In this document: one piece after another, positions 5,588 through 34,927 of the stretch
Layout: each line of letters starts with the position of its first letter
Numbering within the stretch: position 1 is the first letter of the stretch
From: Ruania suaedae
GTDB lineage: Bacteria; Actinomycetota; Actinomycetes; Actinomycetales; Beutenbergiaceae
Length of the DNA stretch: 64,000 nucleotides
Reading direction: 5' to 3'
Assembly (NCBI RefSeq): GCF_021049265.1
Contig: NZ_CP088018.1
Location: forward strand, 2,170,001-2,234,000
Program-made: the position numbers and the translations under genes
Notes under the pieces: model-generated
Database searches by the model: none
The model's input: only the letters and a program-made list of their open reading frames with translations
Told to the model about the DNA's origin: nothing

Positions 5588-6808
5588 ATGACGCACTTCT
5601 TCTCCCCCGACCGCATCGCCATGGGCGTCGGCATCGAGGACACCTTCATCCCGCAGGAGCAGGTAGGCCACCGCAAGCTGGACGAGTACGAGCTCACCCA
5701 GCACTACCACTACTGGCGCGAGGACCTGAATCTGGCGCGGGAGGCCGGGGCGGAGTTCATCCGCTGGGGTATCCCGTGGTTCCAGGTGGAGCCACGGGAG
5801 GGGGAGTTCGACTTCTCCTGGATCGACGAGGTCGCGGCGCATATGCAGCAGATCGGGCTGCACTGCGTGGTGGACCTGCTGCACTACGGCACGCCGCTGT
5901 GGCTGGACAACGCGTTCGTGAACGCGCGCTATCCGGAGTACTTCGCCCGGTACGCCGGGGCCGTGGCCGAGCGCTACCGGGGGGTGTTCACCTCGTTCAC
6001 GCCGGCGAACGAGCCGCTGGTGAATGCGCAGTGGTGCGGCCGGGATGGGCGCTGGCCCCCGTACCTGACCGGCGAGGACGGCTACGTCAAGGTGGTGGTG
6101 GCCGTGGCCGAGGGGATGTCCCGGGCGCAGGAGGCAATTCATGCCGCGGCGCCGGAGGCTGAGATCGTCTTCGTCGACGCCGGGTTCCGGTATGCGGGCG
6201 ACCACTTCCCGGGGCACTCGCGTGAGCACCTGGAGGAGTGGCGCTTCATCGCGACGGACTTGGTGATGGGCCGTGTGGATCAGGGGCACTCGCTGTTCGG
6301 GCACCTGCGTGAGTACGGGGTGACGGAGGAAGAGCTGGCCTGGTTCCGGCAGAACGCCAAGACCCCCGACATCATCGGCGTGAACTACTACCCGGGCTTC
6401 AGCACCACCACCTTCGACGAGGCCGGCGCCGAGGTGCCCGGCGAGGGCGGGGTCGAGGGGCTCGTGGACCTGGTGCGGGCGAACCATGAGCGGTACGGAC
6501 TCCCGATGGCCATCACCGAGACCTCACGGAACGAGTCGCCCGAGGCGAAGATCCAGTGGCTGCAGGAGTCGCTGGCTGCGTTGGAGGACCTGCGGGCCGA
6601 CGGCGTCCCCATCACCGGGTACACGTGGTTCCCGTTCTTCTCGCTGATCGACTGGCTGTACCGGTACGAGACCGACAGCGCCGACAACCACTGGAACCAC
6701 CTGGGATTGTTGGAGCTCCGCAGGACGGCGGGGGGTGCGCTGGTGCGGGTGCCGAATGCGGCATTGGACAGCTTCACGCGAGTCGCCTCAGGCCGGCTGG
6801 AAGTGTGA
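5588..6808 (+). CDS. GH1-like (clan GH-A) intracellular glycosidase
   Basis: A 406-residue protein resembling the beta-glucosidase/beta-galactosidase group (GH1, COG2723) but somewhat shorter than the usual 440-480. The (beta/alpha)8 barrel shows the proposed acid/base Glu142 in TPANEP and the proposed nucleophile Glu311 in AITETSRNE; the typical GH1 form at the latter is ITENG, so this is a divergent member. No signal peptide is visible, so it acts in the cytoplasm on the imported glycoside. The start at 5588 has AAGGAAT upstream; longer frames only read through the permease gene. It closes the operon controlled by the divergent LacI. Its 3' end overlaps the convergent NERD gene by 21 bases, which marks the left edge of the defence island. 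Confidence 0.85.
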   Translation: MTHFFSPDRIAMGVGIEDTFIPQEQVGHRKLDEYELTQHYHYWREDLNLAREAGAEFIRWGIPWFQVEPREGEFDFSWIDEVAAHMQQIGLHCVVDLLHYGTPLWLDNAFVNARYPEYFARYAGAVAERYRGVFTSFTPANEPLVNAQWCGRDGRWPPYLTGEDGYVKVVVAVAEGMSRAQEAIHAAAPEAEIVFVDAGFRYAGDHFPGHSREHLEEWRFIATDLVMGRVDQGHSLFGHLREYGVTEEELAWFRQNAKTPDIIGVNYYPGFSTTTFDEAGAEVPGEGGVEGLVDLVRANHERYGLPMAITETSRNESPEAKIQWLQESLAALEDLRADGVPITGYTWFPFFSLIDWLYRYETDSADNHWNHLGLLELRRTAGGALVRVPNAALDSFTRVASGRLEV

Positions 6809-7645
6809 CGCCAACGCCTCGCGGACAGCGGGCACGTCGACCGCGCCGCCCTCGCCCGCGGCCAGCAGCTTCGTCAGCCGCCTCGGCCACAGGGTGTGGA
6901 CGCCTCGGGTCGTGAAGTCGCCACCGATCAAGGGCCAGTCGGCGTCGACGAAACACAGCACTCCCGTCACCGGAAGGTCCCCGACAACAGCACGGACCAG
7001 ATCGACCTGATTGATCACGCCGTCGACGAGCTGGGTGCAGTCACGTCGCCCGACGAGGAGCTTCTCGACCCTCGGCCGCAGGATGCCACCCTCCACACGG
7101 AGGAGGGGTCGCCCCTTGTACTTCTTCGCGTCGATGACCCAGATGCCGGCGGGCGTGATCGCCATGTGGTCGATGTTGGCCCGCGAGCCGGGGATGCGCC
7201 GGTCGTGCAGGACCGCGATCGACTCCGAGGCGAGTGCGTCGAGATGAGCTCCCAGGCGCTCCTCGCCGACTGCCCCGGTCGCCCACGCCTTGGTGCGCTG
7301 CTTGTCTTCCGAGAATGCGACAGCGACGCCACCGAGCTTGCCCCACTTCTGCCGGAGCCGCTGCTCGTTCCTGGCCTTACGGCGTTCGTACTCGCGGCGG
7401 GCCGACGACCCGGCAACTCCTGCGTCGTCGGGTGACACCACCGCGATCGATGCCGACTCAGCCTCGTCCACCGACTCGGCTACGGGCGTGCCAGCCGGGC
7501 AGGCTACGCAGCGCACCGTCTTGTTCGCGCGTTCGTAGATGGCGTCCGCCCGGGCAGGCAGCTCGCTGCCACAGAGACGGCATCGTCCAGCGTAGCGGAG
7601 CTTCATCCGCTCGCCGACGAATTTGGTCGGGGTGTCTTCGGTCAC
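6788..7645 (-). CDS. Zinc-ribbon NERD-domain (nuclease-related) protein
   Basis: A 285-residue protein. Residues ~20-50 hold two CxxC pairs (CRLC and CVAC), a likely zinc ribbon. From about residue 130 comes a NERD domain: GAVGEERLG, then NIDHMAI and WVIDAKKYKG, which match the acidic and lysine positions of the PD-(D/E)xK-like nuclease fold. NERD proteins are often tied to DNA processing or defence, but their substrates are rarely known. The GTG at 7645 is taken as start. The gene faces the glycosidase gene and their ends overlap. It is the first gene of the island on this side, and no clear operon partner is seen. Confidence 0.85.
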   Translation of the reverse strand: MTEDTPTKFVGERMKLRYAGRCRLCGSELPARADAIYERANKTVRCVACPAGTPVAESVDEAESASIAVVSPDDAGVAGSSARREYERRKARNEQRLRQKWGKLGGVAVAFSEDKQRTKAWATGAVGEERLGAHLDALASESIAVLHDRRIPGSRANIDHMAITPAGIWVIDAKKYKGRPLLRVEGGILRPRVEKLLVGRRDCTQLVDGVINQVDLVRAVVGDLPVTGVLCFVDADWPLIGGDFTTRGVHTLWPRRLTKLLAAGEGGAVDVPAVREALASHFQPA

Positions 7646-7844
7646 GCGGCCGCACCATCCTCATCGGGCAACACAGAGGAGACAAGTTGACCACCTCGTC
7701 CACAGTTGGCGCGAACACACCTTCGGCTCGGCCGGCACCGAGGGGTTGGACGCGAGGATCTCAAAGCCAACCGCATTTGAGACCCCCACAGACGACCGCG
7801 CTGCTAGCGTGTCTCGACTCGTGTCAATTCTCGGATCGGACAAG

Positions 7845-8470
7845 ATGATGGCGAATACCAGGATGGCGGCCACCGGATTCGCCGCTCTGCTCCTTGTGGG
7901 TGGCTGCGCAAGCGGATCGGACTCCGCTCAGGACACATCCCCCACGGAGCAGACCTCAGCGGCCGCTACCCCGGAGCCGACGACGGAACCGCCGTCGCCG
8001 ACACCCAGCCCGACTCCCACCCAAGAAGCAGTCCCAACTTTCGAGATCGGCGAGGAAATCTCTCGCCCCACCGCCGACCTCGTGGTGAACGTTCTTGAGG
8101 AGCGCGAGGTCATCGAAGTCGCCACGTACCACGACGAGGACTTCACACCCAACGACGGGGAGCGTCTGTGGTACGTGGACATCACCTGGACCAACAACCT
8201 GCCTGAGGCCGTGGCAAGGAGTGTCACGGACCGTACGCAATGGATCTCACGGCTTTCGATGTCGAGGGTCGAGAGATGCTCATGGTTGACCAGCCTGGCT
8301 ACATCGACGGTCAAGAGTGCTCGACCGGCCTTATGCAGGGGCAGACAGGTACCTGGCTTTCAGCATTTCGGGGCTTGGACGCCGAGCTCGGATGGCTGAT
8401 CTTCGATGACTACAACGGCGAAGCCGCCGTAGTCGTCATGGACCCTGAAACGGAGTTGTACTACAACTAG
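7845..8470 (+). pseudogene. Frameshifted lipoprotein gene
   Basis: The first part, from ATG 7845 (a second ATG follows at 7848), encodes a lipoprotein signal peptide with lipobox LVGGC, a Thr/Pro/Ser-rich linker and a beta-rich domain reaching LWYVDITWTNNLPEAVA. After about 8213 this frame loses sense. The -1 frame then continues naturally as ECHGPYAMDLTAFDVEG and runs to a stop at 8470 (DPETELYYN). Adding one base near 8214-8218 joins the two into a protein of about 208 residues with a conserved-looking Cys pair (ECHG and QECST). This looks like a DUF4352-like extracytoplasmic lipoprotein broken by one missing base. A sequencing error is equally possible. A small lipoprotein of similar build lies at 58597-59130. 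Confidence 0.7.
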
Positions 8471-8549
8471 GCGTCTCGCTTCCTGGTAGTGCAAGGTTCA
8501 GTCCAAAGGGGACGCCAGTGCCCCATGGACGCCAACCCAGGAGCCACCG

Positions 8550-9824
8550 ATGACTGACGAGATCGAGCTGATCAGCGACGGCGACGGCATCGCAGTCATC
8601 GGCGACGCCACCGTCGTCGACCGCTTCCTCACCTCCCAGGGCCTCCCCTCGAAGGACCTCCGCCTCTCCCAACTCGGATCCACCTTCAGCGCCGGCTCCG
8701 GCGCACTGCAGTCGGCCTCGACCATGTCGGCCAATTCCGGTCGCTGGGTCCAGCTGACCCAGGAGTCCGCCCAGGCATTGGGCCAGTCTCCCCTCATGAA
8801 GGGCTCACAACCAGGCGTCAGCCGCGCGATCCTCACGCAGCAGAACGGCCAGATCAAGGGGATCCTCGAGATCGTCCGCACACCAGGCTCCATGCTCGCC
8901 AACCCGGCGTTGCTCACCGGCGCCGCCGGGATCATGGCCCAGCTCGCCATGCAGCAGACGATGGAGGAGATCACCGACTACCTGGCCACGATCGATGCGA
9001 AGGTCGACGATGTCCTTCGCGCCCAGAAGGACGCAGTGCTCGCCGACATGATCGGGGTGGACTTCGTCCTCGAGGAGGCCATGACGGTGCGCGAGCACAC
9101 CGGCCGCGTTTCCGAGGTGACCTGGTCGAAGGTGCAGGCAACGGCCCTGTCGATCGGCCGCACTCAGGCCTACTCACTACGTCAGCTCGACGCCCTCGCG
9201 GAGAAGCTCGAGCGAGCGGCCAAGATGGGCGACCTCGCCAAGGCCGCCCAGGACGCCGAGGCCCGAGTCCAGGAGTGGCTCGCCGTCCTCGCCCGATGCT
9301 TCCAGCTGCAGGACGCCCTGGCAGTGCTCGAACTCGACCGCGTGCTCGACGCCTCCCCGCAAGAGCTGGATCAGCATCGCATCGCGCTGCGGGCCGCGCG
9401 GCAGAACCGATTGGATCTCATCGCGCAGTGCACCGCGCGGCTGCTGACCCGGATGGCTGCGGCGGCCGGCACCGCAAATGCGAAGGTGCTGCTGCACCCG
9501 TCCTCCTCGCGCACCGTCGTGGCTGCCGGCACCCGCGTCAGCGGTGAGGTCGCCGAGTTCCACACGCGCCTGGGGCTCGACCACGACGCGCAAGTGCTGG
9601 AAGCACGTCGATGGGTCGAGGCAGCCACGGACGTGCGCGACAAGGCGTTCGAGACCGGCGCCGACGGCTTCGACACCGCTCGCCGGCTCGGGGCGGAGTC
9701 CGTCGGCCGCGCCCGCTCGGTCACCGGGAAGTTCGCCAACGGGATCGCCCAGCGCGTCCCACGACGCCGCGGCAACAGCGAGAACGAACCCCCTGAGCTC
9801 GAAGCCCCCGACCTGAACAAGTAG
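8550..9824 (+). CDS. Unknown protein heading the DUF6361/PLD/helicase cassette
   Basis: A 424-residue protein with no domain I recognise. A hydrophobic, Ala-rich stretch lies around residues 110-135 (NPALLTGAAGIMAQLAMQQT), then a long, strongly helical Ala/Glu/Arg-rich region to about 300 that could form coiled coil, and a charged, Pro-rich tail. No signal peptide is visible. GGAG lies six bases before ATG 8550. The stop is 11 bases before the DUF6361-like gene, so the two are probably co-transcribed. It may be a sensor or regulatory component of the cassette, but that rests on position only. Confidence 0.75.
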   Translation: MTDEIELISDGDGIAVIGDATVVDRFLTSQGLPSKDLRLSQLGSTFSAGSGALQSASTMSANSGRWVQLTQESAQALGQSPLMKGSQPGVSRAILTQQNGQIKGILEIVRTPGSMLANPALLTGAAGIMAQLAMQQTMEEITDYLATIDAKVDDVLRAQKDAVLADMIGVDFVLEEAMTVREHTGRVSEVTWSKVQATALSIGRTQAYSLRQLDALAEKLERAAKMGDLAKAAQDAEARVQEWLAVLARCFQLQDALAVLELDRVLDASPQELDQHRIALRAARQNRLDLIAQCTARLLTRMAAAAGTANAKVLLHPSSSRTVVAAGTRVSGEVAEFHTRLGLDHDAQVLEARRWVEAATDVRDKAFETGADGFDTARRLGAESVGRARSVTGKFANGIAQRVPRRRGNSENEPPELEAPDLNK

Positions 9825-9835
9825 CAGAGGGCTCC

Positions 9836-11038
9836 GTGACCTCCACTCTCGCCTGGCTCGACTCCGACATCACCGAGCGCCGCCGCATGCTCGACGTCCT
9901 CGACGCCTTCCGGGACAAGGGCTCCACCGACGAACTCGGCATCGGCCAGATCCGCGACGGCTTCTCCGACGCCCTCTTCCCCGGCACCTCCACCCAGCAC
10001 ACCCGCGTGCGCTACGTCTTCCTCATCCCATGGCTGCTGGACGCCACCCTGGATCGCGCACGCCCACGCGATGACGCCACCACCCTGCAGGAGCGCTTCC
10101 GCCAGCACGAGATCCGCCTCATCAACTCGCTGGTAACCGGCTCCCCACCCGGCACCACCGGCATCATCGGCTCCTCCGCCCGACGAGCTCTGCAGCTCAT
10201 GCCCTCCTCGATCTACTGGAGCGCGATCCACTCCTGGAACCTCTCCCCCGTGCACGCCACCCCCTCGGCCTCCCTGCGTGCGGGACTCACCGCCCGCCGC
10301 CGCTACCGCGAGATCGAGCACGCCGACGACGACGGCTCCCGCACCCTCCCACCCGCACGCTTCGCCGTCGCGAACCTTCCTGCCCCCGAGGGCCTGCTCG
10401 AGGCCACCACGCTGGACCTGAGCGCGACCGAAGCGGAGGTCCTCACCGAACGGATCACGACGGCGCCCCGCACCTCCGCCTCTCTGCTCGCCTGGCTCCT
10501 GCGTCACCCCGAGGTCGACATCGACGTCGACCGCCCGTGGCACCTGCCCGCACCCGCCCTGCCGGAGCAGATCCGGCACGTCCTGGACCACGCCGGCCGC
10601 TTCGCCGTCGCCACCCACGGCGCCCGCCTGCGCTACCACCAGCTGGTCAGCCGCGCCGCCGACCACGACACCAGCGACATCGACGCCACCTTCTCCGCCT
10701 GGGCCGACGATCCGACCACCCACGCCGCGTTGCGCACCTGGTCTCTCCCGGACTTCTGGGCGACGATCGATCACCTCGCGCCCCGCGTCGGCACACCGAC
10801 CCGTGCCTTCCTCACCCGCTGGATCGAACTCGCCCGCACGGGCCGGGCCACCTCCGACGAGGCGGACCGCCTCCTCACCGACCGCGAGCGCACCCTCAAG
10901 GGCGCCCGCGCCCGGATCAGCAACCCCGCCGCACGCCTCGACTGGTCCGCCGCCGCAGGATCGGCGCCGACCTTCCGATGGGCCACCGCACACTCGCTCC
11001 TGACCGACGTCCGCACCGCCCTGGCGGCTGCGGCATGA
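9836..11038 (+). CDS. DUF6361-like protein
   Basis: A 400-residue protein whose beginning (LAWLDSDITERRRMLDVLDAF, then DELGIGQIRDGFSDALFPGTS and RVRYVFLIPW) matches the conserved start of the DUF6361 family. The biochemical activity of this family is not established as far as I know. The rest is helical and Arg-rich, ending in a basic segment (LLTDRERTLKGARARISNPAARL). The start is GTG with AGAGGG upstream. Its stop overlaps the next gene's start by four bases (ATGA), so it is coupled to the phospholipase D-like protein. It could be the target-recognition or adaptor subunit of a three-protein machine; this is inference. Confidence 0.85.
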   Translation: MTSTLAWLDSDITERRRMLDVLDAFRDKGSTDELGIGQIRDGFSDALFPGTSTQHTRVRYVFLIPWLLDATLDRARPRDDATTLQERFRQHEIRLINSLVTGSPPGTTGIIGSSARRALQLMPSSIYWSAIHSWNLSPVHATPSASLRAGLTARRRYREIEHADDDGSRTLPPARFAVANLPAPEGLLEATTLDLSATEAEVLTERITTAPRTSASLLAWLLRHPEVDIDVDRPWHLPAPALPEQIRHVLDHAGRFAVATHGARLRYHQLVSRAADHDTSDIDATFSAWADDPTTHAALRTWSLPDFWATIDHLAPRVGTPTRAFLTRWIELARTGRATSDEADRLLTDRERTLKGARARISNPAARLDWSAAAGSAPTFRWATAHSLLTDVRTALAAAA

Positions 11039-12885
11039 GCCTGCAACCCCAGTCCCGCACGCTGCTCACCGACGCGCTGCGCCCACCGGACGGCTTCGAC
11101 CTCGACTGCGCCGTGGCGACCACCTACACGCTCTCGCTCACTGCCGCGCTGATGTTGCCGCTGGCGTTCACCGACCGATCCGCCGACGGCCCGCCGGACC
11201 CGGTGGCCATCCTGGACGCCGTCCAACGCTACGGCGACCGGGTCACCGTCTTCTGCCAGTCCGGCGCGATCGGCGTACCCCGCTACCGCAGCCTGCTCGC
11301 GCTGCTGGAGGAGAGCGTGCACGCTGTGACCGCCCCGACGCCGGGGCGGATCTTCCACCCCAAGGTGTGGGCGCTCCGCTTCACCTCCCCCGCCGGCGAG
11401 CAGCGTCACCGCGTGGTGGTCCTCAGCCGCAACCTCACCCTGGACACCTCCTGGGACACCGCCCTCGTCCTGGACGAGCAGGAGACGCCCGCCCCGGTCG
11501 ACACCGCCCCGATCACCGCGTTCCTGGACGCCCTGCCGGACCTGGCCATCCGCCCGCTCCCCCACGCCCGACGGCGCCTGCTCGCCGACCTGTCGCGCAC
11601 CCTGGCGGGCGCCCACCTCGCTCCGCCTGCCCCGTACACCGGCGCCGCCGTCCTCCCGCTCGGACTGCCCGGGCAGCGTGCGAGCTGGCCGATCCCCGAA
11701 CGCGCGCGACGCGTGCTCGCGATCAGCCCGTTCCTGGACCGCACCCAGCTCGCCCGCCTCCCCCGCGCCACCGACCGCACCCTGCTGGCTCGCCCGGAGG
11801 CACTCGACCGCGTCGGTGGCCGCGCCCTCGAGAACTGGCACACATTCACCCTCGCCACGACGGCGGAACCCGATCCGGAGACAGACCTCTCACCGGAGGC
11901 ACCCGAGTTCCACCCACCCGAGCCGGACTCCCCCACCCAGGAGACCGACCCGGTGCGCTCGGGCCTGCACGCCAAGGTGCTCATCGCCGACCTCGACGCC
12001 CGCACCTCCCGCACGATCGTCGGGTCGGCGAACCTGACCAGCGCCGCCTGGGGCAACGCCCACCCGGGCGGGGCGGCAGGGAACGTGGAGGTCGCCGTCG
12101 TGCTGGACGGCCCGGCCCCGACCACCGGGGTGCGCGCCGTGTTCGAAGGCGAGCAGGGCCTGAGCAGGGTGCTGGCCACGTATCGACCCGAGCTGTCCGA
12201 GCCCGTCGAGGATCCGCTCGAGCCGGCGTCGATGGCCCTCGAGGAGTTCCACCGCCACCTGGCATCCCGGCCCTGGCAGGCCCGCATGACCGACTCGGCC
12301 GACACCTTCGAGGTGACGATCACCGCCCCCGACGACCTGGCCGAACCGCCCGCCACCCGCACCCGCGTGTGGCTGGCGAGCCTGCCCGCCGGCCGCGCCA
12401 CTCGGCTCACGCCGGGCGTCGAGTTGCGGTGGACGCAGCTGCCGGCCACGCACGTCACCCCGTTCCTGGCCATCGAGTCCACCACGAGCGTCGCCGAGCT
12501 GACCTGCACCCGCCGGTGCGTCGTCCAGGTGCATCTCGACGGCGACGATGCGTTGCGCCGTCGGGCGGCGGTACGCGACGTGCTCGCCGAGACCGAGGAC
12601 GTGACCCGCTACCTGCTCTTCCTCCTCGACGGCACGCCCGGGGCGGCGGGCCCTGCCGAGAGCCTCCTCACGGTGGCCGCGACCGGCAGCACCTCCGACG
12701 ACGCCGGCCCGGCCGCCAGTGCGGTGCTGTATGAGCCGCTGGTGCGGGCCGCCGTCGCCCAGGACGGTCGCTTCGAGCGGATCCAGCACGTGGTCGAGGA
12801 CCTCCTTGCCGCAGACGACGGCGCGAACCTCCTCCCCCCGGGCTTCCTTCCGCTCTGGCAGGCAGTCCAGGAGGCGCGCGCATGA
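11035..12885 (+). CDS. HKD/phospholipase D-like nuclease-family protein
   Basis: A 616-residue protein with two HKD half-sites. The first is IFHPKVWAL with SRNLT about 30 residues later (residues ~104-135). The second is GLHAKVLIAD with GSANLT (residues ~307-335). Such paired HxK...N sites form one active centre in PLD-family nucleases and phosphodiesterases, including those in restriction and defence systems. The C-terminal ~250 residues are unassigned and may bind the partner helicase. It overlaps the flanking genes by 4 bases at each end (ATGA), indicating fixed stoichiometry with the DUF6361-like protein and the helicase. DNA cleavage is the likely role, but lipid or RNA substrates are not excluded. 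Confidence 0.87.
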   Translation: MSLQPQSRTLLTDALRPPDGFDLDCAVATTYTLSLTAALMLPLAFTDRSADGPPDPVAILDAVQRYGDRVTVFCQSGAIGVPRYRSLLALLEESVHAVTAPTPGRIFHPKVWALRFTSPAGEQRHRVVVLSRNLTLDTSWDTALVLDEQETPAPVDTAPITAFLDALPDLAIRPLPHARRRLLADLSRTLAGAHLAPPAPYTGAAVLPLGLPGQRASWPIPERARRVLAISPFLDRTQLARLPRATDRTLLARPEALDRVGGRALENWHTFTLATTAEPDPETDLSPEAPEFHPPEPDSPTQETDPVRSGLHAKVLIADLDARTSRTIVGSANLTSAAWGNAHPGGAAGNVEVAVVLDGPAPTTGVRAVFEGEQGLSRVLATYRPELSEPVEDPLEPASMALEEFHRHLASRPWQARMTDSADTFEVTITAPDDLAEPPATRTRVWLASLPAGRATRLTPGVELRWTQLPATHVTPFLAIESTTSVAELTCTRRCVVQVHLDGDDALRRRAAVRDVLAETEDVTRYLLFLLDGTPGAAGPAESLLTVAATGSTSDDAGPAASAVLYEPLVRAAVAQDGRFERIQHVVEDLLAADDGANLLPPGFLPLWQAVQEARA

Positions 12886-15800
12886 CCGACCGGCCCGACA
12901 CGGCGGCGGCGCTGGCCCCACTGAAGGACTTCCAGCGCGCCACGGTGGAGCACGCCCACGACCGGCTGTGGGCGCCGGGGGCGTCCAAGCGTTTCCTGGT
13001 GGCCGATGAGGTGGGCCTGGGCAAGACGATGGTGGCTCGCGGCGTCATCGCCCGGTCGATCGAGGAGCTGTGGGAGACGGTCGAGCGCATCGACGTGGTC
13101 TACGTGTGCTCCAACCAGCAGATCGCCCGGCAGAACCTGGCGCGGCTCACCCCGCCGGGCGCGCATCAGATCCAGGTGGACCGGCTCACGCTGCTGCCGC
13201 GCGTCACCCACCGGCTGCACGAGCGGCTGAACGTCATCGCGCTCACTCCCGGCACCTCGCTGACGCACGAGGGCAGCGGCCGGCGCGATGAGCGTGCCCT
13301 GATGCTGGTGCTGCTGGAGGTGGCACTGGGCCGGTCGGCGGTCCGGGCGCGCCGGTGGCGGCGCTTCTTCCAGGGTGGCTGCCGGGAGGAGAACTTCCAG
13401 TGGGTGCTGAACCAGACGCGAGACCAGGATGCCCGTTCGCTGGATCCGGACCTGGCCGACGACTTCGTCCACCGGCTCCAGCAGGACGGCGAGGGCGGGC
13501 CGCTGTGGGACGAGCTCGCCGAGTGCGTCGCCGATTTCGACTACAAGCGCAGCATCCCGAAGGAGCTCAACACCCGGCGCCGGGAGATCCTTGCCCGGAT
13601 GCGCCGCGTGCTTGCCGAGTCCTGCGTGGCCGAGCTCGAGCCGGATCTGGTGATCCTGGACGAGTTCCAGCGCTTCGCGCACCTGCTCGATGACCAGAGC
13701 CCCGAGGCCGAGCTCTCCCGGCAGCTGATCGACCACGTGGACGAGGCCGGTAACGCCGCGCGTACCCTGCTGCTCTCGGCCACGCCGTACAAGATGTACA
13801 CGGTGCCGGGCGAGGCCGGCGAGGAGGACCACTACCGCGACTTCGCCCGCACGCTGCGGTTCCTCGGCGGTGACGCCGACCCGCGGCTGCCCACGGACGT
13901 CCAGGTGGGCCTGCGACAGATGCGTGCCGGGATGCTGCCCGGAGCCGGTGTGGCGGCCGTGTCCGCGGCGAAGGCGGCCCGCGAGCAGGTGCAGCAACGA
14001 CTCCGTCAGGTGATGTGCCGCACCGAACGGCTCGCAGCCGATCCCCAGCGCAATGGCATGCTGGCCGAACGCATGGTCGAGGCTCCCCTGACCGCGCAGG
14101 ACGTGCGCGCCTACGCACACCTGCGCCAGGTGGTCTCGATGATCGACGGCACGAGCGGTCGCCGCGTGCGCGACCCGTTCGAGTTCTGGCACTCCAGCCC
14201 CTACCCGCTGCACCTGATGGACACCGGCAGCTACGTCCTCAAGCAGGCGCTGGACGCCGCGGTCGGCAACCACGAAGCGCTCGTGCCCGCGCTGCGGTCC
14301 GGCCCCGGGGTGCTCCTGGGCGCCGAACTCGAGCGCTACGCCCGACTGGATCCGGGCAACGCGAAGATGCGCGCCCTCCTGGCCGAGACCGAAGGCATGC
14401 ACGAGCTGCTGTGGCTGCCGCCGTCGCTGCCCTACTACCGCCCGGGCGGGGCGTTCGCGCTGGCACCGAGCGTGACCAAGCTGCTGGTGTTCTCGGCGTG
14501 GAACGTGGTGCCGAAGGCCATCAGCGCGGTGCTCAGTTACGAGGCGGAGCGGCGGTTGCGGCCCGAGCGCTGGGAGGGGCGGCGGCAGTCCTATGGCGCC
14601 CGCCAACCCAGCCCGCTGCTGCAGTACCGGCTGGACGCCGAACGCGATCGCGAGGCCGGGATGCCCGCGCTGGCGCTGTCCTACCCGTGCCTGACCCTGG
14701 CCGAGTTGGGCGATCCGCTCGCCATCGCCCGCGAGCAGCCGGCCTCCGACGACGGCGTCCCCTCCTCCGAGGATGTCCTTGCCGTGGTCCGGGAACGGGT
14801 GGCTGCGGCGTTGGCGGACCTTCCGATGGGCCCGAGCGACGGTCCGGTGGATGAGGAGTGGTACTGGGCTGCGCCGTTCCTCCTGGATGCGCTGCACCTG
14901 GGCGGCGACGCCGTGGCCGCGGTGCTGCGCTCGACGGCGGCGACCGCCGAGGAGGACGAGACCCCGGATGCCTATCGCCGGCACGTGCGGCGCGCCGTGG
15001 CGGTTCGTGCCGAGGACCTGGGCCGCCGACCCGCGGATCTGGTGGAGGCGCTGGCCCGGCTCGCGGTGGCCGGGCCCGGGGTGTGCGCGCTGCGAGCGCT
15101 GACCCGTGGGGCGTCGGCGGACAACATGCTGGACGTCGCTGTGCGCACCGAGGCGTTCGGGGTGGCCGAAGCGCTGCGGGCCCGGTTCAATCGCCCCGAG
15201 GCGCAGGGTGCCGTGCGGACCTGGCACCCGGAGGTGGCCTATTGGCGGGCGGTGCTGCGATATGGGGTGGATGGCGGGATCCAGACGGTGCTCGACGAGT
15301 GGGCGGCGGTGCTGCGGGGAGCATTCGGGGCCGGCGTGGCGACAGTGGCCGAGCAGATGCGCGCGGCACTGGGGCTGCGTACCTCGGTGGCGCGAGTGAC
15401 CACCTATGACGACGCCGAGGACCTCGAGGTGCAGCGCACCCACGGGGTGCGCACCCACTTCGCGGTGCGCTTCGGCCGGCAGGAATCCGAGGAGCAGGGC
15501 CAGCAGGACCGTGAGGACGTGGTGCGGCGGGCGTTCAACTCCCCGTTCTGGCCGTTCGTGCTGGCGAGCACGTCGGTGGGACAGGAGGGCTTGGACTTCC
15601 ACCCGTACTGTCACGCGATCGTGCACTGGAACCTGCCCGGCAACCCGGTGGACCTGGAGCAGCGGGAGGGGCGGGTGCACCGTTACCAGGGGCATGCCGT
15701 ACGCAAGAACGTCGCGGCCGCACACGGCGCGGGGGTCTTGCGGGACTCGGCGGCATCGGATCCCTGGGAGGCGATGTTCGATGCCGCGACGGCGCAGCGA

Positions 15801-16046
15801 CCGGCAGATGTCGGCGAAGTCTGGCCGAGCTGGGTGTACCCGGGTCCGGCGCAGATCGAGCGGATCGTGCCGCGTCAGCCGCTCTCGCGAGAGGACGCCC
15901 AGTACAGCCGGTTGCGCTCCGAGGTGGCGGCGTACCGGCTGGCGTTCGGGCAGCCGCGGCAGGAGGATCTGGTGCGGCTGGTGGGTGGCGAGGCGACGGC
16001 GCTGGAGTGGGCGCGGATCGACCTGGCGCCGCCTGCGTGCAGCTGA
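12882..16046 (+). CDS. SF2 (SNF2-like) helicase of the PLD cassette
   Basis: A 1054-residue ATP-dependent helicase or translocase. Motif I is ADEVGLGKT near residues 41-49, motif II LDEFQRF near 258-264 and motif III SATPYKMY near 297-304. The C-terminal RecA domain carries GQEGLDFHPYCHAIVHWNLP and QREGRVHRYQGH near residues 905-945. DEFQ in place of DEAH, the long insert between the RecA lobes and the VGLGKT form fit bacterial SNF2/HepA-like translocases found in defence loci. The start overlaps the PLD gene's stop by 4 bases. The DUF6308-like gene follows after 39 bases. It most likely moves along DNA and delivers or activates the PLD nuclease. Confidence 0.9.
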   Translation: MTDRPDTAAALAPLKDFQRATVEHAHDRLWAPGASKRFLVADEVGLGKTMVARGVIARSIEELWETVERIDVVYVCSNQQIARQNLARLTPPGAHQIQVDRLTLLPRVTHRLHERLNVIALTPGTSLTHEGSGRRDERALMLVLLEVALGRSAVRARRWRRFFQGGCREENFQWVLNQTRDQDARSLDPDLADDFVHRLQQDGEGGPLWDELAECVADFDYKRSIPKELNTRRREILARMRRVLAESCVAELEPDLVILDEFQRFAHLLDDQSPEAELSRQLIDHVDEAGNAARTLLLSATPYKMYTVPGEAGEEDHYRDFARTLRFLGGDADPRLPTDVQVGLRQMRAGMLPGAGVAAVSAAKAAREQVQQRLRQVMCRTERLAADPQRNGMLAERMVEAPLTAQDVRAYAHLRQVVSMIDGTSGRRVRDPFEFWHSSPYPLHLMDTGSYVLKQALDAAVGNHEALVPALRSGPGVLLGAELERYARLDPGNAKMRALLAETEGMHELLWLPPSLPYYRPGGAFALAPSVTKLLVFSAWNVVPKAISAVLSYEAERRLRPERWEGRRQSYGARQPSPLLQYRLDAERDREAGMPALALSYPCLTLAELGDPLAIAREQPASDDGVPSSEDVLAVVRERVAAALADLPMGPSDGPVDEEWYWAAPFLLDALHLGGDAVAAVLRSTAATAEEDETPDAYRRHVRRAVAVRAEDLGRRPADLVEALARLAVAGPGVCALRALTRGASADNMLDVAVRTEAFGVAEALRARFNRPEAQGAVRTWHPEVAYWRAVLRYGVDGGIQTVLDEWAAVLRGAFGAGVATVAEQMRAALGLRTSVARVTTYDDAEDLEVQRTHGVRTHFAVRFGRQESEEQGQQDREDVVRRAFNSPFWPFVLASTSVGQEGLDFHPYCHAIVHWNLPGNPVDLEQREGRVHRYQGHAVRKNVAAAHGAGVLRDSAASDPWEAMFDAATAQRPADVGEVWPSWVYPGPAQIERIVPRQPLSREDAQYSRLRSEVAAYRLAFGQPRQEDLVRLVGGEATALEWARIDLAPPACS

Positions 16047-16085
16047 CCGAACACAGCGGTGAGAGATGGCTTGTAGCCTCGCGAG

Positions 16086-16763
16086 ATGACGACGGGCCTC
16101 CCCACCGACTGGTCGCCCATCCCCGACGCGACGTTGCGAGCCACCCGCGAGATCGCACTCGCGAAACTCCGCGACCCACGGACCCCTGAAAAGGTGGCCC
16201 GCTACTACGACGTGGCCCGCACGTACGCCGGGGCGTCGTTCACCGCTGGCTACGCCGAGGCGCCCAGCGACATCACGGCTGCGGACCTGCACGCGACCAG
16301 CCTGCTCGCCGTGAAGATCCGCCCCCTGCCCACGCGAAGGTTCCTGGACGATGGCCCGCTCAGGACTGCCGTGCTCGACGGGTTGGCGCTGCTACCCGTC
16401 GACGCCGCGCTCTCCAGCGCGGACGGTGAGCTCCTCACGAAGATGTTCGCGTTCCATGACGCTGTCCGCGAAGCCATCGGGCCGTACGCCTGGGTCACGA
16501 CGTCCAAGGTGACGGCCCGCAAGCGACCGAATCTTTTCCCGGTGCGGGACCGAGTGGTTGTGAACGTCTTGCGTCTCGGTGGACCCGACCGGCGCAAGGA
16601 CTGGCAGGTGTTCCGAGCGCTGATGCAGAACGACGATGTACTGGGCGAACTCGCACGCGTCCGAATCGATGCGGCGAACTACGCTGCGGACAGCGGTATC
16701 GACTGCAAGTTCGACGAACCGGAGTTGCGACTGCTCGACGTCGTGCTCTGGATGAACGGGTAG
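16086..16763 (+). CDS. DUF6308-like protein
   Basis: A 225-residue protein resembling the DUF6308 family: the segment DITAADLHATSLLAVKIRPL and the C-terminal helical part (DWQVFRALMQND) are the clues. No catalytic motif is seen and there is no signal peptide or membrane segment. It lies 39 bases after the helicase in the same direction and is the last gene before a palindromic intergenic element and the convergent DUF4011 gene. The ribosome-binding site is weak. The function is unknown; it could be an accessory part of the cassette or an unrelated passenger. Confidence 0.75.
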   Translation: MTTGLPTDWSPIPDATLRATREIALAKLRDPRTPEKVARYYDVARTYAGASFTAGYAEAPSDITAADLHATSLLAVKIRPLPTRRFLDDGPLRTAVLDGLALLPVDAALSSADGELLTKMFAFHDAVREAIGPYAWVTTSKVTARKRPNLFPVRDRVVVNVLRLGGPDRRKDWQVFRALMQNDDVLGELARVRIDAANYAADSGIDCKFDEPELRLLDVVLWMNG

Positions 16764-16803
16764 AAGCAGCCCGCCTTCTGTAAGAATTTCGGCGTCATGG
16801 CGT

Positions 16804-16833
16804 TCGAGCGGCGACTCGCGAGTGGCCGCTCGA
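16804..16833. terminator. Palindrome between convergent genes
   Basis: Two 15-base arms (TCGAGCGGCGACTCG and its near-complement) abut with one mismatch. It lies in the 134-base gap between the stops of the DUF6308 gene (16763) and the DUF4011 gene (16898). There is no T-run, so it could be a G+C-rich bidirectional terminator or another structured element. Confidence 0.5.
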
Positions 16834-16897
16834 GCGCACCGAACTCGCCATCACTCAGTTTGCCGGTCCACACGTGTGCACCAGGTCAAATCCCGCG

Positions 16898-19800
16898 TCA
16901 TGCTTGTTCGTGTTCTCTAAGCACTCGCGCACCCAAGATCACTGCCTCAGCAGCCGCCCTGAGACGCGCGGCCTGCTGGTGCTCGACCTCATTGTGGTCA
17001 ACCCTTTCGAGACTGAACCAACAGTTTCGCAATCCCTCGGACGGCTCAGGTCGGCGCCAACCAACGGATCTCAAGCGTTCTGCCAGCACCGAGTCGAACG
17101 GCTGCTCGTAGGGCTTGCCGTCGCCGACCTCAACGAACAGGCCCTGGCCCGACACACCCTGCCACTGGATGTAGCCATTCCCGGCTTCGAAACCACCCAT
17201 GCTGCCTGCCTGAATATCGTTTCGCAAAATCGCAGCGAGTCGCTCGACTTCAACGGTCAGATCGTTCGTATCAGTGGCGTCGGACATTTCCGTTGCGGGC
17301 GCCGGATCAACTGGGACTTGCTCGCCCACCAGTGGCTCAGCGATGAGGTCGCGCACAGCTTCGAGCCGCGATCGCACCTGGGCGCCGAGACGCGCAATAC
17401 CGAACACTGCGGCGGTGCGGCGAAGCAATTCGTCGCCCCGATCGTCGTGAGGCTGCACGGCGGCGCGCATCGCGTTCGCGATCTCTTCGGGAGCGATCTC
17501 GTCCAACGTCCGGATACCCGTCGGATCGTAGCGGTAGCCTCGCCACGTGCCTGGGTCGAGGTCCTGCGGCCAGGCAAACGTGCCCAGGGAAGCACCCCTT
17601 CGAACCAGTCCAGCCGGGATCAGCCGGATAATGTCGTCCATCCTTGCCGCTCTCACCTTCGCTAGCCCGAATCGACGCGCAACGGTGCGCGCGAGGCGGC
17701 CGACCTCGATCGGACCCTCCGACTCGACGACGGCCACAACTTCATCCCGCACCTGTGCCACGGCGCGCCGCTCGGACAGCCTGTCCAAGACCTCGCGCGG
17801 GCCCACAGCATCGGTCGACGCCGGAACGAAACTCGTGCCGTCTGAGACTTGCGCGACTTCGCTGACCGGAGCCGGCGCCTCAGCATCCACAACACGGTGA
17901 GTCATGGCGGAATACCCGTTCGACCCAGCGTCGGCAGGTGGCTCGACCGGCGCCGTCCGCGCAGGGAGGTGTTCGGGAGCCTCAGGTTCCACCGTGTCCG
18001 AGGGGGCTGGTTCACGTGGTTCCACGGCCGCTGCCCGCTCATCGAGTATCTGCTCGGCGCGCTCCATCTCCGACAGAATGCTGGCGACGACCTCATCGCG
18101 GTTCTGGAGCCACATGGGCCACCAAATTCTGGCGATAGAGGGCCAACCCATCAGGTCTTCGAGCACGATGACGGGGAGCACGTCGCGATCGGAGACCGTC
18201 CAGCGCTGCTTCCAACTCTCACCGTCCAACAACACCGGCAGGAGCGGACGCGTCGGGTTGTCGGGGCGGGCGAGGACGAGGTCGAGCCGGAAGTTGGACA
18301 GGCCGACATCTGCCATCACGTGCAGACCCGCATCTCGCAGAGCGTCTGCGATCTCGTCGCGGTGCCGATCTCGGATCGCAGCCCGGTGTTCTGACACGGC
18401 TGGCTCTCCGCGCGAGTTCGCTGCCTGCGCGTCGATCAAGAACTCCTTGAGGTCCTTCGGCCCTTGGAAACTGGACCCAGAGACGTCGAGGTCGTTCGAT
18501 GCGGGATTGAAACTGCAGAACACCACATTCTTGCGGCGTGCTCGAGTCACAGCGACGTTGAGGCGGCGCTCGCCGCCGGCGTTGGACAGCGGGCCAAAGT
18601 TCGTCGGGACCTTGCCGTTCGACTGCTTGGAGAACGCGATCGAGAAGATCACGACATCCCGTTCATCGCCCTGCACTTGTTCCAGGGCCTTCACGAACAG
18701 GGCTTCTCCTCGTCCCATGACCGACTCGTCGAGGGCTTCGAGCACGCGCGCGTCCCCGGTGTCCTCGAGGAGGTCCTGAATGAGTTGACGCTGCTGCTCG
18801 TTGAACGTGACGATCCCGATCGAGGGAAGTGCCGACGAGCTGTTCACCAACTCCCGGACGTAGTCGACAATCTCGACGGCCTCGTAGGGGTTGGTGTTAA
18901 TTGTTGCCGTGATCGTGTCGGTCAGCCTGACCTTCTCGGCTCGGGCACGCAGGTACAAGCCCGACTCGAGCCCGCCGGGCCCACGGACGCGTCGGAACTC
19001 CAATCCGGTCTCGGCCGACAACAACGAGGGGGTCGGAAAGCTGCTGAGGTCGCCGCCGTAGTAGTGCCGATTGCTGAAGGCGATCAGTGCCTCGTCCTGG
19101 CTGCGGTAGTGCCAACTGAGTGTCAGGGTCGGTACCCGAGCGAGTTCGCACTCGCTCAGGATCGACTCCTGATCCTCCACGATCTCGTCCGCGTCGGGAT
19201 CGCCGACCTCCTCGTCGTCCACGGACGCTCCACCGACACGTCGGGAGGGTGGCATCTGCTTGCTGTCGCCAACCACGATGGCGGCACGCGCACGTCCAAG
19301 GGCTCCCACTGCTTCCGGCACGGTGATCTGAGACGCCTCGTCGAAGATTACGACGTCGAAGTCCATGACGCGAGGGCGGATGAGGTCGACGACTGAGGAC
19401 GGGCTGCCTAACACCAGAGGCGTGAGTTCCTGGACCGCTTCGCCGTGCTTGCTCAGGAGCGCACGAGTGCCGAGCTTGCGGTTGGTCTTCTCGAGTTCCC
19501 GCGCCAATGCTCCAGTCCGGGAGCCACGTCCATCTCCGCCACGACGAGACAGAAGTCGGGCGGGTCCGTCGGTCGTCCACTGCGTGCGGAGTTGGTCTTG
19601 GGCCGCGGCGTAGGAGTTGACGCGCCGATCGTGAGCAAGCGCGTCGAAGCGGTCGAGCCCCTTCGAGGACATCCGCTCGTGCAAGGAGGCCTGTGCCACG
19701 CCACGCGCCAGTGCCTCTTCAGCGCTGTCCGCAGGCAGCGCCCCCTCCAGAAGGCGCGCCCGTTCAGCGTGCAGGTCCGCGGCGCGCATCGGTTCCACTT

Positions 19801-22800
19801 TGCGCACGAGCGAGCACCAACGCTGCAGTGGCACAAGGCGTTCGAAGTCAACTGCCTGCCGCCATGCGTCAGCCGATCGGGCGGTTGCCTCGATGAGCGA
19901 AAGGTCACCGCGCCAGGCCGTCAGGTCATCGTCCTCGACGGCGAGGTGTGCGCACACGCTCCGCCACGCCCGCGAGAAGGCGGCAAGGGCTTCTGTTTGC
20001 CCGGCCAGGTGCCCGTCTAGAGCGAGCCCTACTACCCGTCGTGTCCACTCGTCACCGGATCGCAGGGCTCGGGTCGCGCCCATCAATTGTTCGAACCTCC
20101 CGCGTGCTGGACTCAGCGCCCCGGGAACGAACGGGTTGGCTGGGACTACACCTGCACCTGCGAGCCCTGGCACGTATGCGATGGTCGAACGCACTTCCTC
20201 GCTTACTCGCTGGACAGCAAGGAGATCGTGCAGGACAGCGCTGGCGTTGCTGGGGTCTAGCGGTGCCGTCGGCGGGGCCCATGGCGCAACCGAAGCGATG
20301 GCTGCCACCTGGCGCCGCTTGCGGCCGATCAGTCCCGAAGAAGTCGCTGTTTCGAACTGGGCCGCGATGCCGGCCAGGTCCTGTTGGAGGACTTCCGGAG
20401 GGAAGCCACGCAATCGCGGCGCCCACTCCTGGACCGTCCTCTCACACCCACTCACGCTCAATGCGGCTCGTTCCGGCCAGTCGGCTGCCAGGACCGCCTT
20501 CAGTTCCTCACCCACCGGCAGGGATGGTGCAGCGGCGGAGGCAAGGGCATCGAGCTGCCTCGGGTGGGTAGCAGCCGCGAGCGCATCGCTGAGCGGCCCG
20601 CTGAGAGCGCGCGCTCGTTCGTTGCTGTCGAGAATTGACCGCAGGTCCTCGCTCACAGCCTCGACGTCGAACGGGTCTCCGCGCCCAACTCCCGCGAACC
20701 GCCATGGATGGTCCGGACGCACCCCCGCCGGCACGGTCCAGCGCTGCAGGTCTTCGATCGCTTCCCGTAGCGCGTCGATGCGCTCTGGCTCGTGGGCGAC
20801 GGTCGAGGGCCGCAAGGGCAGGCGAGGCCCGTCCCCGAGGACGAGCAGTTCATCGTGTGCGCCGTACGCCGAGAGACCGGCCGCGTTCTTCTCGTGGAGC
20901 TGTTGCGGGTATTGCATCAACTCGAAGCGCGCGTTCTTAAGTTGCCGCTGGGCGCTCTGCATAGCGAGCGCGTCTGGGTTGACAGCTGCGGTGAGTGCCG
21001 CCTTCAACTGCGATCGGACTGCGTTCGCGTTGGAGCCCTCGTGGTGCAGGTTGAGGGAGAAGGGGGCAAGGCCGATGGACTCCAGCCGACGTTGCACCAC
21101 GGAGAGCGCTGTGGCCTTCTCGGCGACGAACAACACCCGTAGCCCCGACAGCAGGCACTCCGCCACCATGTTCGTGATCGTTTGTGACTTACCGGTACCC
21201 GGTGGCCCCTGCAGGACGAACGTCCGACCCTCTCGCGCCCAGGCCACGGCGCGCTTCTGAGTAGAGTCCGCCGGAATCGGCGTCTCGAGCTTCTCAAGCT
21301 CCTCTTCGATCGTATTCTGCGGGGCTGAAGTCTCGGACGGGGCGGCTGGATCCTCGAACGCTTCCGTGGGGGTGTGCACCAGATGCTGCACGAGGGGTCG
21401 TTCGAAGTAGTGCTCGGCGTTCGCGTTGAGGTCCTGCCACATCCGGAACGCAGCCAGGTCGAGCGTGGCGAGCTTGGCTTCGCCGACTACCTCGAGATCG
21501 AGGCCACGTTCGGCGATAGCCGTGCGCACCTCCGCCAGTACTCCGTCGACGTCGACGCCGGCGCGGTCGGCCTGCGGTTCTGCGAGTCCTTGGATGACCA
21601 AGCCGTGTTCGCGACGCAACCACTCGATGAGAGCGGCGTTGGGCGTCGTCTGCTGCGTGGCGTCGAGCGAGAGAACAATCTCCTGGCGTCCGCGCGCCAC
21701 GGCGATGTTGACCGGAACGAGAATCATGGGCGCTTCGGCATAGGCGTCAGGCTTGTGCCGCCATCGCAGGAGCCCGAGGCAGAGGAAGAGCGGATTCATG
21801 CCGCGCTCCTCACGTGCTGTCTTCGCCCGGTGGGCCATCGAGCGAATCTCGCGGACAAAACTGGCATGGCTCGCGGGGTCGATCCTTCCCTTCACTGTTT
21901 TCGATCGTTGAACGTAGAGTTGCCGGTCCTTCATCCGGTCAAGCAGATCCTCGGAACTCTCGGAGCCGTGGGCCCGCAGGAGTTCGAGCGCGTTGCGGAC
22001 ATCTCTGGCGTGCCAGAGCTCCGGAACGTCCCACCCGCTACGAAGGGAGAACGCCACGTCTTGATGGAGCCGATCCTCCAGCGTGCCGAGGCCTTCCTCG
22101 GGAATGACGATCGGTTGGACGCGAGCGCTCGTGCCCAAGTTGAGCAGAGCGTTGGTGGCGTTCAGGCTGAAGAGCGAGGACTTCCATGTGCGATACCTCG
22201 CGGGGTGGCTGTCGATGCGCCGTTCGCCTGACAGCTGCTGATCCGATTCGGTCTCGACTCGGAGGACGCCGTCGGCCTCGCCCGGCCGATATTCGATGAT
22301 CTCGGTGACACCGTCGGAGCGATGCGTAACCGCTGGCAGTGGCGAAACGCCGTCCTTTCTCGCGGCAACGACGTCGATCAAGGAAACGAACGTGTCGGGA
22401 AGAGCCTCGGCGAGATTGTTGCGAGCAACCACGCCCGCACGTTCCGCTGAAATATCAGTTCCCACAGTCAAGGCGGTCGTCTCGATGACCCCGAGCCAGC
22501 CGCCATCAATGAGTCGGCCGACCTGGCTCGAGTCTTCGATCACCGGAGTGTTCGGGTACCACTCTGCGACCGGGCCAGCGGACGCGAAGGGATCGCGCCG
22601 CCAATAGCCGATGAAGATGTGCCCGTGCACGAGCACAAGGACCGGGTGAAGTCCCACTTGCTCGATCACAGCGGCCATGAGGACAGTGGTGTCCATACAC
22701 GTACCAAGACCACCCCTGGCGACGTCGCCATGGTCCCTGATGCGTTGGCCAGACGACCGATAGTCCCACTCGGGAGGGGGCTCAGAGTAGGCGATCTGCC

Positions 22801-32487: not shown

Positions 32488-32552
32488 GGATCCGATCCTG
32501 TCAGAGGGCACAGACACTCGTCTGGCCATCTCGGCCCACGGCACCCACAGCG

Positions 32553-33146
32553 CTACTCGCAATCATTGCCGGGCACAATGACGCCGCGAAGTCGCTCTGC
32601 CGTCTCGCTCATCCGGTAGCGCTCCACGATGAGGTCGAGAAATCTCTCCGGGCTGACCGGTGGATTCGTATACCGTGCCAGCATTCTCGTGACGGCCTCC
32701 CCGGCGCGTTGCGGGTTCACCGAGACGGTGTGCGCCGCGAAGTCGGCTGGCGTCTGGATCTCGATATGGCGCGGAACCTGTGCGCGAGGAAAGTGCTTCA
32801 GGTTCTCGGTGACGATCACGTCGGCCTTGCCGGTGACGGCGGCAGCAAGCACGTGCTCGTCATTGCTGTCCGGCAGGTCGAACGTGCCGTCGAGGGGCTC
32901 CCAGTCGCGCACGCAGGCATCGTCGAATGCGGAGGCCATGGTGACGACGAGATGTTCGGCAGCGACCCGAGCCTTCTCCGGGTCGGTGCCTCGTTCTTCA
33001 CGCTTGATGCGCTCAGCGCGTTCAAGTTCGGTGAGGATTGCTGAGCTCCAGAGCGGCCGGTAGAGATCCTCGACGCTCAGTGAGAGGAGTAGGTCCCGAC
33101 GCAGACTCGGCCACAGGGTGCACGTGTCGAGCAGCGCCGCAAACAT
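32553..33146 (-). CDS. PIN-domain ribonuclease toxin
   Basis: A 197-residue PIN protein. The first acidic residue lies in ALLDTCTLWPS (residues 4-14), the second region in SSAILTELERAERI, and the third in PDSNDEHVLAAA, followed by VIVTENLKHFP. Together these form the metal site of PIN ribonucleases. The length and the C-terminal helical extension match the COG1569-like toxins paired with HTH antitoxins. The antitoxin gene lies 25 bases upstream in the same direction. The toxin likely cleaves RNA when freed from its antitoxin. The pair sits between the FRG gene and the giant helicase and could stabilise the island. Confidence 0.87.
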   Translation of the reverse strand: MFAALLDTCTLWPSLRRDLLLSLSVEDLYRPLWSSAILTELERAERIKREERGTDPEKARVAAEHLVVTMASAFDDACVRDWEPLDGTFDLPDSNDEHVLAAAVTGKADVIVTENLKHFPRAQVPRHIEIQTPADFAAHTVSVNPQRAGEAVTRMLARYTNPPVSPERFLDLIVERYRMSETAERLRGVIVPGNDCE

Positions 33147-34123: not shown

Positions 34124-34927
34124 CTACTCTCCAAACTTTTTCGGGAAGAGCCCGTCGCGACCATCATACAGGTCGCGATCCGTTCGCGAGAATGGATGAG
34201 TTGGGCCATTGGATTGCGCAAAGCCCGCGAAATCCGGGTAGACCCCAATCCCGTCTAAACCGCAATTCTTGGCAAGATATTCTCTCAGCGATGACTTTAG
34301 ATCCGAATCGATTTCGATCTTATCTATGTGGAAGTACTGGTCACTCCACTCGAAGGGATTATTCGATGCAAGATTCTCGCGAATCCTTCCTACAAGAAAT
34401 CCTGCCCGTTGTGCCTTCACTCGCTCGCTTCTTGTCGCTGGAACATAGGCGCGTGGCCCCTGCTCCTCAGTACTATCAAGGACCTCATCCAGAGAGTCCA
34501 CTTCAAAGTAATTTACAACTCGGTCCAATGGCAAGGAAAAGTGGAGCACTGCGCCGACCTTGCCGGGATGGGAGTGACCTGATGCAAACCATAGCGCAAC
34601 CAGGGGATCGCGACTCACGTCCAGGAACCTGGTGGCGCCCCCGTTGTGCTGCGCCTCAATGAGGGTTTCAATAACATTACCAAGATAGAAGCCTCGACCA
34701 TTCGCTTCACACAAGAGGTCCGTTTCGTATCGCTCTACGAGTTCTTCCGTAATCTCGTCGATGTCAAAGCGAAGGCGGAGTCGGCGATAGAGCGTTGGGT
34801 AGGTGGGCCAATCAACATCCTCCTGCCCGCGCCAGAAGTGAACTCGCGTCGCATCCGCTGCGTAAGAATAGATTTCTTCCAGAACATACCCCACACTCTC
34901 AAGTGCGGAAGAACTTGCTCTATTCAA
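34124..34927 (-). CDS. FRG-domain protein
   Basis: A 267-residue protein with the FRG motif set: FWRGQEDVDWPTYPTLYRRL near residues 31-50, and EAQHNGGATRFLDVSRDPLV near 90-110, followed by ALWFAS. FRG proteins are named for the (F/Y)RG motif; some act as toxins or sensors in defence loci, but the activity is not settled. The start is TTG at 34927, overlapping the methyltransferase stop by four bases (TTGA). A near-perfect AAAGGAGGA lies ten bases upstream, inside the methyltransferase gene. Base composition is lower in G+C than the methyltransferase, suggesting a separate origin despite the tight coupling. Confidence 0.83.
   Translation of the reverse strand: MNRASSSALESVGYVLEEIYSYAADATRVHFWRGQEDVDWPTYPTLYRRLRLRFDIDEITEELVERYETDLLCEANGRGFYLGNVIETLIEAQHNGGATRFLDVSRDPLVALWFASGHSHPGKVGAVLHFSLPLDRVVNYFEVDSLDEVLDSTEEQGPRAYVPATRSERVKAQRAGFLVGRIRENLASNNPFEWSDQYFHIDKIEIDSDLKSSLREYLAKNCGLDGIGVYPDFAGFAQSNGPTHPFSRTDRDLYDGRDGLFPKKFGE

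Follow-up and report, generated by a model that had tools for sequence, protein, structure and literature searches.

We analysed a 64-kb stretch of the single-contig, 3.56-Mb genome of Ruania suaedae (positions 2170001-2234000), which we call the window. It holds a run of five open reading frames (ORFs) on the forward strand (Table 1) that an earlier reading of this DNA (the original prediction) had taken for a five-gene defence cassette. The layout given in that reading is accurate: the third and fourth genes each begin within a 4-base ATGA overlap with the gene before (11035-11038 and 12882-12885), and gaps of 11 bases (9825-9835) and 39 bases (16047-16085) separate the first and the last gene from this block. 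We find that the three central genes are a zacABC operon, the ZAC set of the defence system database PADLOC-DB, and that the two outer genes are separate neighbours. A scan of positions 8000-17200 for sigma-70 promoters and terminators returned none, which is uninformative in a high-GC genome, and a tRNA scan of the window and the 10 kb preceding it returned none.

Table 1. Genes of the five-gene run and active-site motifs of their products, in window coordinates
Feature	Position	Strand	Details
First gene: helical protein, actinobacterial family; neighbour, outside zac	8550..9824	+	
zacA: DUF6361 protein, 400 aa, predicted all-helical	9836..11038	+	GTG start; PF19888, PADLOC ZacA
zacB: double PLD-type phosphodiesterase (predicted), 616 aa	11035..12885	+	start overlaps zacA stop; PADLOC ZacB
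zacB first half-site HPK, residues 108-110, partner N133	11356..11364	+	
zacB second half-site HAK, residues 312-314, then GSAN (330-333) and E352	11968..11976	+	
zacC: SF2 helicase/translocase (predicted), 1054 aa	12882..16046	+	start overlaps zacB stop; PADLOC ZacC
zacC Walker A core GLGKT, residues 45-49	13014..13028	+	
DUF6308 protein, 225 aa; neighbour, outside zac	16086..16763	+	PF19827

The three central genes are a catalogued ZAC set

The protein models of PADLOC-DB 2.0.0 match the products of the central genes along nearly the whole of each model. The ZacA model scores 358.7 bits (E = 1.5e-107; residues 2-396 against model positions 2-394 of 396), the ZacB model 525 bits (E = 7.5e-158; model positions 2-581 of 586) and the ZacC model 1086.4 bits (model positions 5-1016 of 1019), and the genes stand in contiguous A-B-C order at 9836-16046. 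By protein models and gene order, this segment is an instance of ZAC, from which the three genes differ in nothing that we saw. Neither outer gene has a match in PADLOC-DB. Pfam confirms the labels that had been put on the second and fifth genes, placing ZacA in DUF6361 (PF19888, E = 7.6e-45) and the product of the fifth gene in DUF6308 (PF19827, E = 1.5e-30), both above cut-off; across the five proteins NCBIfam and PHROGs gave weak or partial matches and nothing more.

The original prediction was aware of no named system composed of these genes and had itself held that a match to a known system under another name would count against it. Since PADLOC-DB lists ZacA, ZacB and ZacC, the claim of novelty falls, and a supposed new five-gene system is replaced by a precise three-gene unit. 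The literature searched, which left out most subscription papers and bioRxiv, contained no paper testing ZAC, none on DUF6361, on DUF6308 or on PADLOC together with zac, and no account of the meaning or origin of the name; the part of the first PADLOC paper (PMC8565338) available to us has no word starting with 'zac'. A guess at the letters, that ZAC is a companion of Zorya, was rejected: in three zac loci, 10 genes lying upstream were scanned, and there is no Zorya protein among the PADLOC matches listed for them.

zacABC is a compact, co-evolving unit

We collected 97 zac loci, of which 80 come from a genome scan with ZacC (the best 80 of at least 505 relatives), four from other genomes of the phylum, four from plasmids and eight from divergent plasmid loci, with the window itself as the 97th; the plasmid loci are 12 of the 43 records in which ZacA has a match. 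Profile searches recovered all three genes in 84 loci, zacB and zacC in eight, zacC alone in four, and zacA and zacB in one. Because the 80 scan loci were picked by ZacC alone, the presence of ZacA and ZacB beside it counts as a result. Among the 13 incomplete loci, 12 abut a contig end (the exception, L080, is weighed below), and in one of the 84 complete loci, L139, zacA is split into several ORFs. The order is A, B, C, with a junction of at most 60 bases between zacA and zacB in 81 of the 84 loci and between zacB and zacC in 83.

The same association appears when DUF6361 is the starting point. Of 394 genomes of the class, 11 are positive, and ZacB lies adjacent in nine of these, the genome of the window included. 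All eight divergent plasmid DUF6361 loci have ZacB and ZacC by profile, and six of them have both annotated as such. DUF6361 is therefore nearly always accompanied by one phospholipase D (PLD) protein and one helicase. In two loci (L181, 6093-6920; L182, 9358-10446) an ORF covers just the N-terminal part of DUF6361, and the stretch examined contains neither ZacB nor ZacC; these ORFs are remnants or another architecture.

The three proteins have also diverged together. Their pairwise distances correlate (r = 0.844, 0.880 and 0.859), with a maximum of 0.264 in 200 permutations of each comparison. These distances, like the tree and the motif counts below, draw on 83 of the 97 loci, leaving out L139 and the loci that lack any of the three genes. 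Gene set, order, coupling and co-evolution are thus shown, as is the conservation of the active-site motifs described below.

zacABC is sparse but widespread

Within the phylum, ZacB was found in seven of 396 genomes, with two of the seven matches weak (about 40 bits). The wider distribution was read from a ZacC tree built by a quick method, in which 24 of the 80 inner branches have less than 80% support. The window belongs to a group of 18 rows that has full support, and the remaining 17 are all Actinomycetota. Elsewhere, rows from Gemmatimonadota, Acidobacteriota and Actinomycetota are mixed in one tight clade and two Methanotrichaceae rows nest among bacteria, although many of these rows are metagenome bins, in which stray contigs are possible. 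A haloarchaeal plasmid also carries zac. No ZacC relative was present among 45 candidate stretches of viral contigs. Taken together, zacABC is a mobile three-gene set present in archaea as well as in many phyla of bacteria.

One contig (L072) has two zac operons about 3 kb apart, at 6779-13237 on the forward strand and 16333-22693 on the reverse strand.

ZacC and ZacB retain motor motifs and two predicted half-sites

The fourth gene had been called a SNF2-like translocase, and ZacC indeed matches the Pfam families DEAD and Helicase_C above cut-off. Its Walker A glycines and lysine (G, G and K) are present in 83 of 83 rows and the threonine in 82, the DEFQ and SAT motifs in all 82 ungapped rows, and the QREGR..R motif in all 80 ungapped rows. 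A ZacC profile has five matches among PDB sequences, all of them RapA.

ZacB had been described as a double-HKD protein. Two half-sites are present, and their layout in a single chain, each of the form HxK...N, is that of the PLD superfamily. The histidine and lysine are found in all ungapped rows (82 of 82 for the first half-site and 81 of 81 for the second), and in an alignment of 68 rows (the 67 of 76 available proteins from loci L022-L101 that are near full length, plus the window) H108, K110, N133, H312, K314, G330, S331, N333 and E352 are invariant. The third letter of HKD is what does not hold. Counting the window, 70 of 82 ungapped rows have R at the D position of the first half and three have D or E; at that position of the second half, 68 of 81 have D or E. 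The window's own protein has R at the first of these positions and D at the second. Classical HKD proteins have D in both halves. Because D is mostly absent from the first half of ZacB, its site is better described as double HxK...N. Tyrosyl-DNA phosphodiesterases have this same arrangement, an HxK...N that lacks the D.

Family and structure searches place ZacB less sharply. It scores 20.8 bits against Pfam PLDc_2 (cut-off 27) and matches Tyr-DNA_phospho weakly (E = 0.03, below cut-off). Against PDB sequences the single protein gave nothing useful; with a profile, the second half-site matches one PLD nuclease chain strongly, 7clg, a 'putative helicase' (E = 1.4e-06), and reaches three more without significance, a restriction endonuclease (2c1l, E = 0.16), R.NgoVII (4rct, 0.35) and NucT (6ehi, 0.9). 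The ZacB structure model (predicted local distance difference test, pLDDT, 89.7) is mixed helix and strand to about residue 380 and beta-rich at about 415-500, with a helical end.

ZacA is predicted to be all-helical, with no confident match among solved folds

An AlphaFold2 model of ZacA, made from an alignment of 65 rows (the 64 of 68 available proteins from L022-L101 that are near full length, plus the window), is all helical and of high confidence (mean pLDDT 91.2; predicted template modelling score, pTM, 0.87). No solved structure in the PDB matches it at E <= 0.001 (best E = 0.23), nor does any predicted viral structure (best E = 0.27), and by sequence the only PDB match is a P450 (E = 0.34 and 0.87). 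Among the three components, ZacA is the one whose fold and role stand out as a question.

zac operons lie among defence genes

The window is a defence island. Besides zacABC it encodes a type IIG enzyme, a DrmD-like SNF2 protein, a DruE-like helicase, a protein resembling ProA and PDC-S37, and a SLATT protein paired with a reverse transcriptase of group UG17. Among the neighbours in 87 zac loci, 19 clusters are seen in three or more loci, and 15 of the 19 match PADLOC models at E <= 1e-5 (one representative per cluster was scanned). As some of these clusters are general helicases, a comparison with host genes was made. At E <= 1e-20, 90 zac neighbours matched 142 PADLOC models, against nine matched by 90 length-matched host genes, in a count of models rather than genes with one host genome as control. 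The neighbours, from genes called by a simple script, were drawn at random from 550 eligible, with at most two per locus, and the controls came from 20 random host regions. zacABC thus occurs among defence genes. The coupled unit of DUF6361, PLD and superfamily 2 (SF2) proteins at the centre of the original prediction is supported: the co-occurrence it called for is seen in 84 of 97 loci and, for ZacB, in nine of the 11 DUF6361-positive genomes, and the unit recurs in defence-rich neighbourhoods.

A translocase-driven nuclease is the best reading

The best reading of the operon is a translocase-driven nuclease, given the conserved motor, the conserved double half-site, the near-obligate presence of ZacA and the setting among defence genes. 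We consider it probable that zacABC is a mobile operon for such a predicted nuclease, with ZacA as adaptor or sensor, that destroys incoming DNA. ZacA, ZacB and ZacC would form one complex, in which ZacC would hydrolyse ATP and move along DNA, and ZacB, with two HxK...N half-sites per chain, would be the phosphodiesterase responsible for cleaving nucleic acid. ZacA, predicted to be all-helical, may hold or license the other two, as an adaptor or as a target sensor, and the likely outcome would be destruction of incoming phage or plasmid DNA. A translocase-guided PLD nuclease with DUF6361 as adaptor had been proposed before. Conservation of the motifs keeps that proposal plausible and the best on offer, whereas its complex, its substrate and its choice of target stay at the level of what we infer.

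The zac core has no methyltransferase, which argues against classical restriction-modification logic, and self is for that reason probably spared without a cognate methyl mark. Sparing would then probably depend on the structure or state of the DNA, such as ends, replication intermediates or a lack of host protection. If ZAC does restrict DNA without a methyl mark, how the host is spared becomes a testable question. A more far-reaching view, which we hold only tentatively, is that ZAC could be a modification-independent immune machine of bacteria and archaea in which a ZacA of a fold unseen in solved structures couples a translocase to an HKN nuclease, with the target chosen by DNA state.

Several observations weigh against the translocase-driven nuclease or against the strict unity of its genes. 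L080 has zacC and only the end of zacB, without zacA, and two of the 11 DUF6361-positive genomes of the class (G204 and G527) have a partial DUF6361 with no ZacB or ZacC in the stretch examined. Four of the 19 recurrent neighbour clusters have no PADLOC match, and the host comparison is limited by its single control genome and its count of models. A Foldseek search of the ZacB model against the PDB gave no match at E <= 0.001, and no PLD chain is among the 50 matches listed, which are mostly Fn3/Ig-like or other beta-rich proteins; the PLD assignment hence rests on sequence motifs and profiles. The activity of ZAC is a prediction, and sequence does not separate a DNA from an RNA substrate or a phage from a plasmid target.

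The same parts could serve abortive infection, with sensing by ZacC and ZacA releasing ZacB onto host nucleic acid. Damage-sensing pairs of helicase and nuclease are known, as reported for Hachiman HamAB, and a three-gene core without a cognate methyltransferase would suit this mode of action too. We regard it as unlikely.

A role outside immunity, as a unit for DNA repair or end processing that travels in islands, seems to us improbable. ZacABC would here pair a TDP1-like HKN phosphodiesterase with a translocase, in keeping with the D-less HxK...N layout of ZacB, with its weak Tyr-DNA_phospho match and with the ZacC profile finding in the PDB only RapA, a housekeeping protein. The presence of ZacB in just seven of 396 phylum genomes, the spread of zac across phyla and its defence-rich neighbours argue against such a role.

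Relation to known systems

The translocase-driven nuclease that we favour resembles several known systems in part. DISARM likewise has a PLD protein (DrmC) and a related SF2 helicase (DrmD, SNF2-like). There are weak matches to DrmC, and matches to DrmD confined to the C-terminal helicase motifs, but the scores are far under the curated cut-offs (20.2 against 133 bits for DrmC and 59.1 against 610 for DrmD), none of the five proteins matches DrmB and the zac core lacks a methyltransferase, which leaves it outside DISARM. ZacC shares C-terminal helicase motifs with DpdE of the Dpd system, yet at 54 bits against a cut-off of 500, and no other dpd family is among the matches of the five proteins. 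The PLD-helicase fusions (PADLOC PLD_Helicase and NCBIfam NF042964) carry PLD and helicase in one chain. ZacC matches their helicase part weakly and the second half-site of ZacB matches 7clg; zac differs in having two chains plus ZacA. Hachiman reportedly has a comparable logic of a nuclease (HamA) and a sensor helicase (HamB), but none of the five proteins matches HamA or HamB at E <= 0.1, and zacABC is not a Hachiman system.

The outer genes are separate neighbours

At E <= 0.1 the product of the first gene falls in none of the families of Pfam, PADLOC and PHROGs; it has one NCBIfam match far under cut-off and two matches only among PDB sequences, both with E > 0.6; the DUF6308 protein gave nothing useful against PDB sequences. 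Searching ORFs of both strands with an iterated DUF6308 profile (26 ORFs) found a match in none of the 96 other zac loci, leaving the window alone among the 97. A homologue of the first gene is clear in one of the 96, L078 (460 bits), where it is not adjacent but about 5.5 kb beyond zacC on the opposite strand; a weak one is present in L026 (40 bits). At least 5 kb is available on both sides in 46 of the 96 loci, so a distant copy of an outer gene could be missed in the remainder.

DUF6308 is found in 18 of 396 phylum genomes, and the family of the first gene in nine (the window's included, two weak). The latter family is also carried by four actinobacterial plasmids whose examined stretches lack zac. 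Across 11 other contexts of the first-gene family, no partner is shared by more than two. In the stretches of the 96 other loci, therefore, the first gene and the DUF6308 gene are not parts of zac, and the proposed five-gene cassette is not upheld. That all five genes make one system, with the helical and DUF6308 proteins as working parts, is suggested by their shared direction and short gaps and by the company that the outer families keep elsewhere (described next), but with DUF6308 in none and the first gene clearly in one of the other zac loci, and with no recurrent partner, we give it almost no credence.

On the Gordonia plasmid pGKT1 (L020, 7155-9206), a DUF6308 gene immediately precedes a homologue of the first gene, without zacA or zacC in the stretch. 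At L019 (1328-9248) a homologue of the first gene follows two genes that look by eye like type I restriction-modification genes, and at L149 (1491-8882) a DUF6308 gene follows two related genes, again type I restriction-modification by eye. Both families may provide accessory genes that take up positions, and share slots, next to defence operons.

Other defence genes of the window

The remaining defence genes are on the reverse strand. Next to the five-gene run, positions 16898-23824 encode a protein of 2308 aa that scores 1394.7 bits against the NCBIfam anti-phage ProA model (curated cut-off 1500) and 790 bits against PADLOC PDC-S37. A DruE3-like helicase of 2145 aa with an MZB domain follows at 26125-32562; no second Druantia protein turned up in the genes of the window that were scanned. 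At 34924-42734 the type IIG enzyme (1447 bits) adjoins the DrmD-like SNF2 protein (298 bits), a pair that also neighbours zac in L023 (14827-22322). Of the 87 zac loci, nine have the SNF2 cluster and five the IIG cluster. The UG17 reverse transcriptase (349 bits) and its SLATT partner (140 bits) occupy 43151-45261. On the other side of the run, a NERD-domain protein is encoded at 6788-7645, and a homologue of it lies near the zac operon of L078 (4226-5245).

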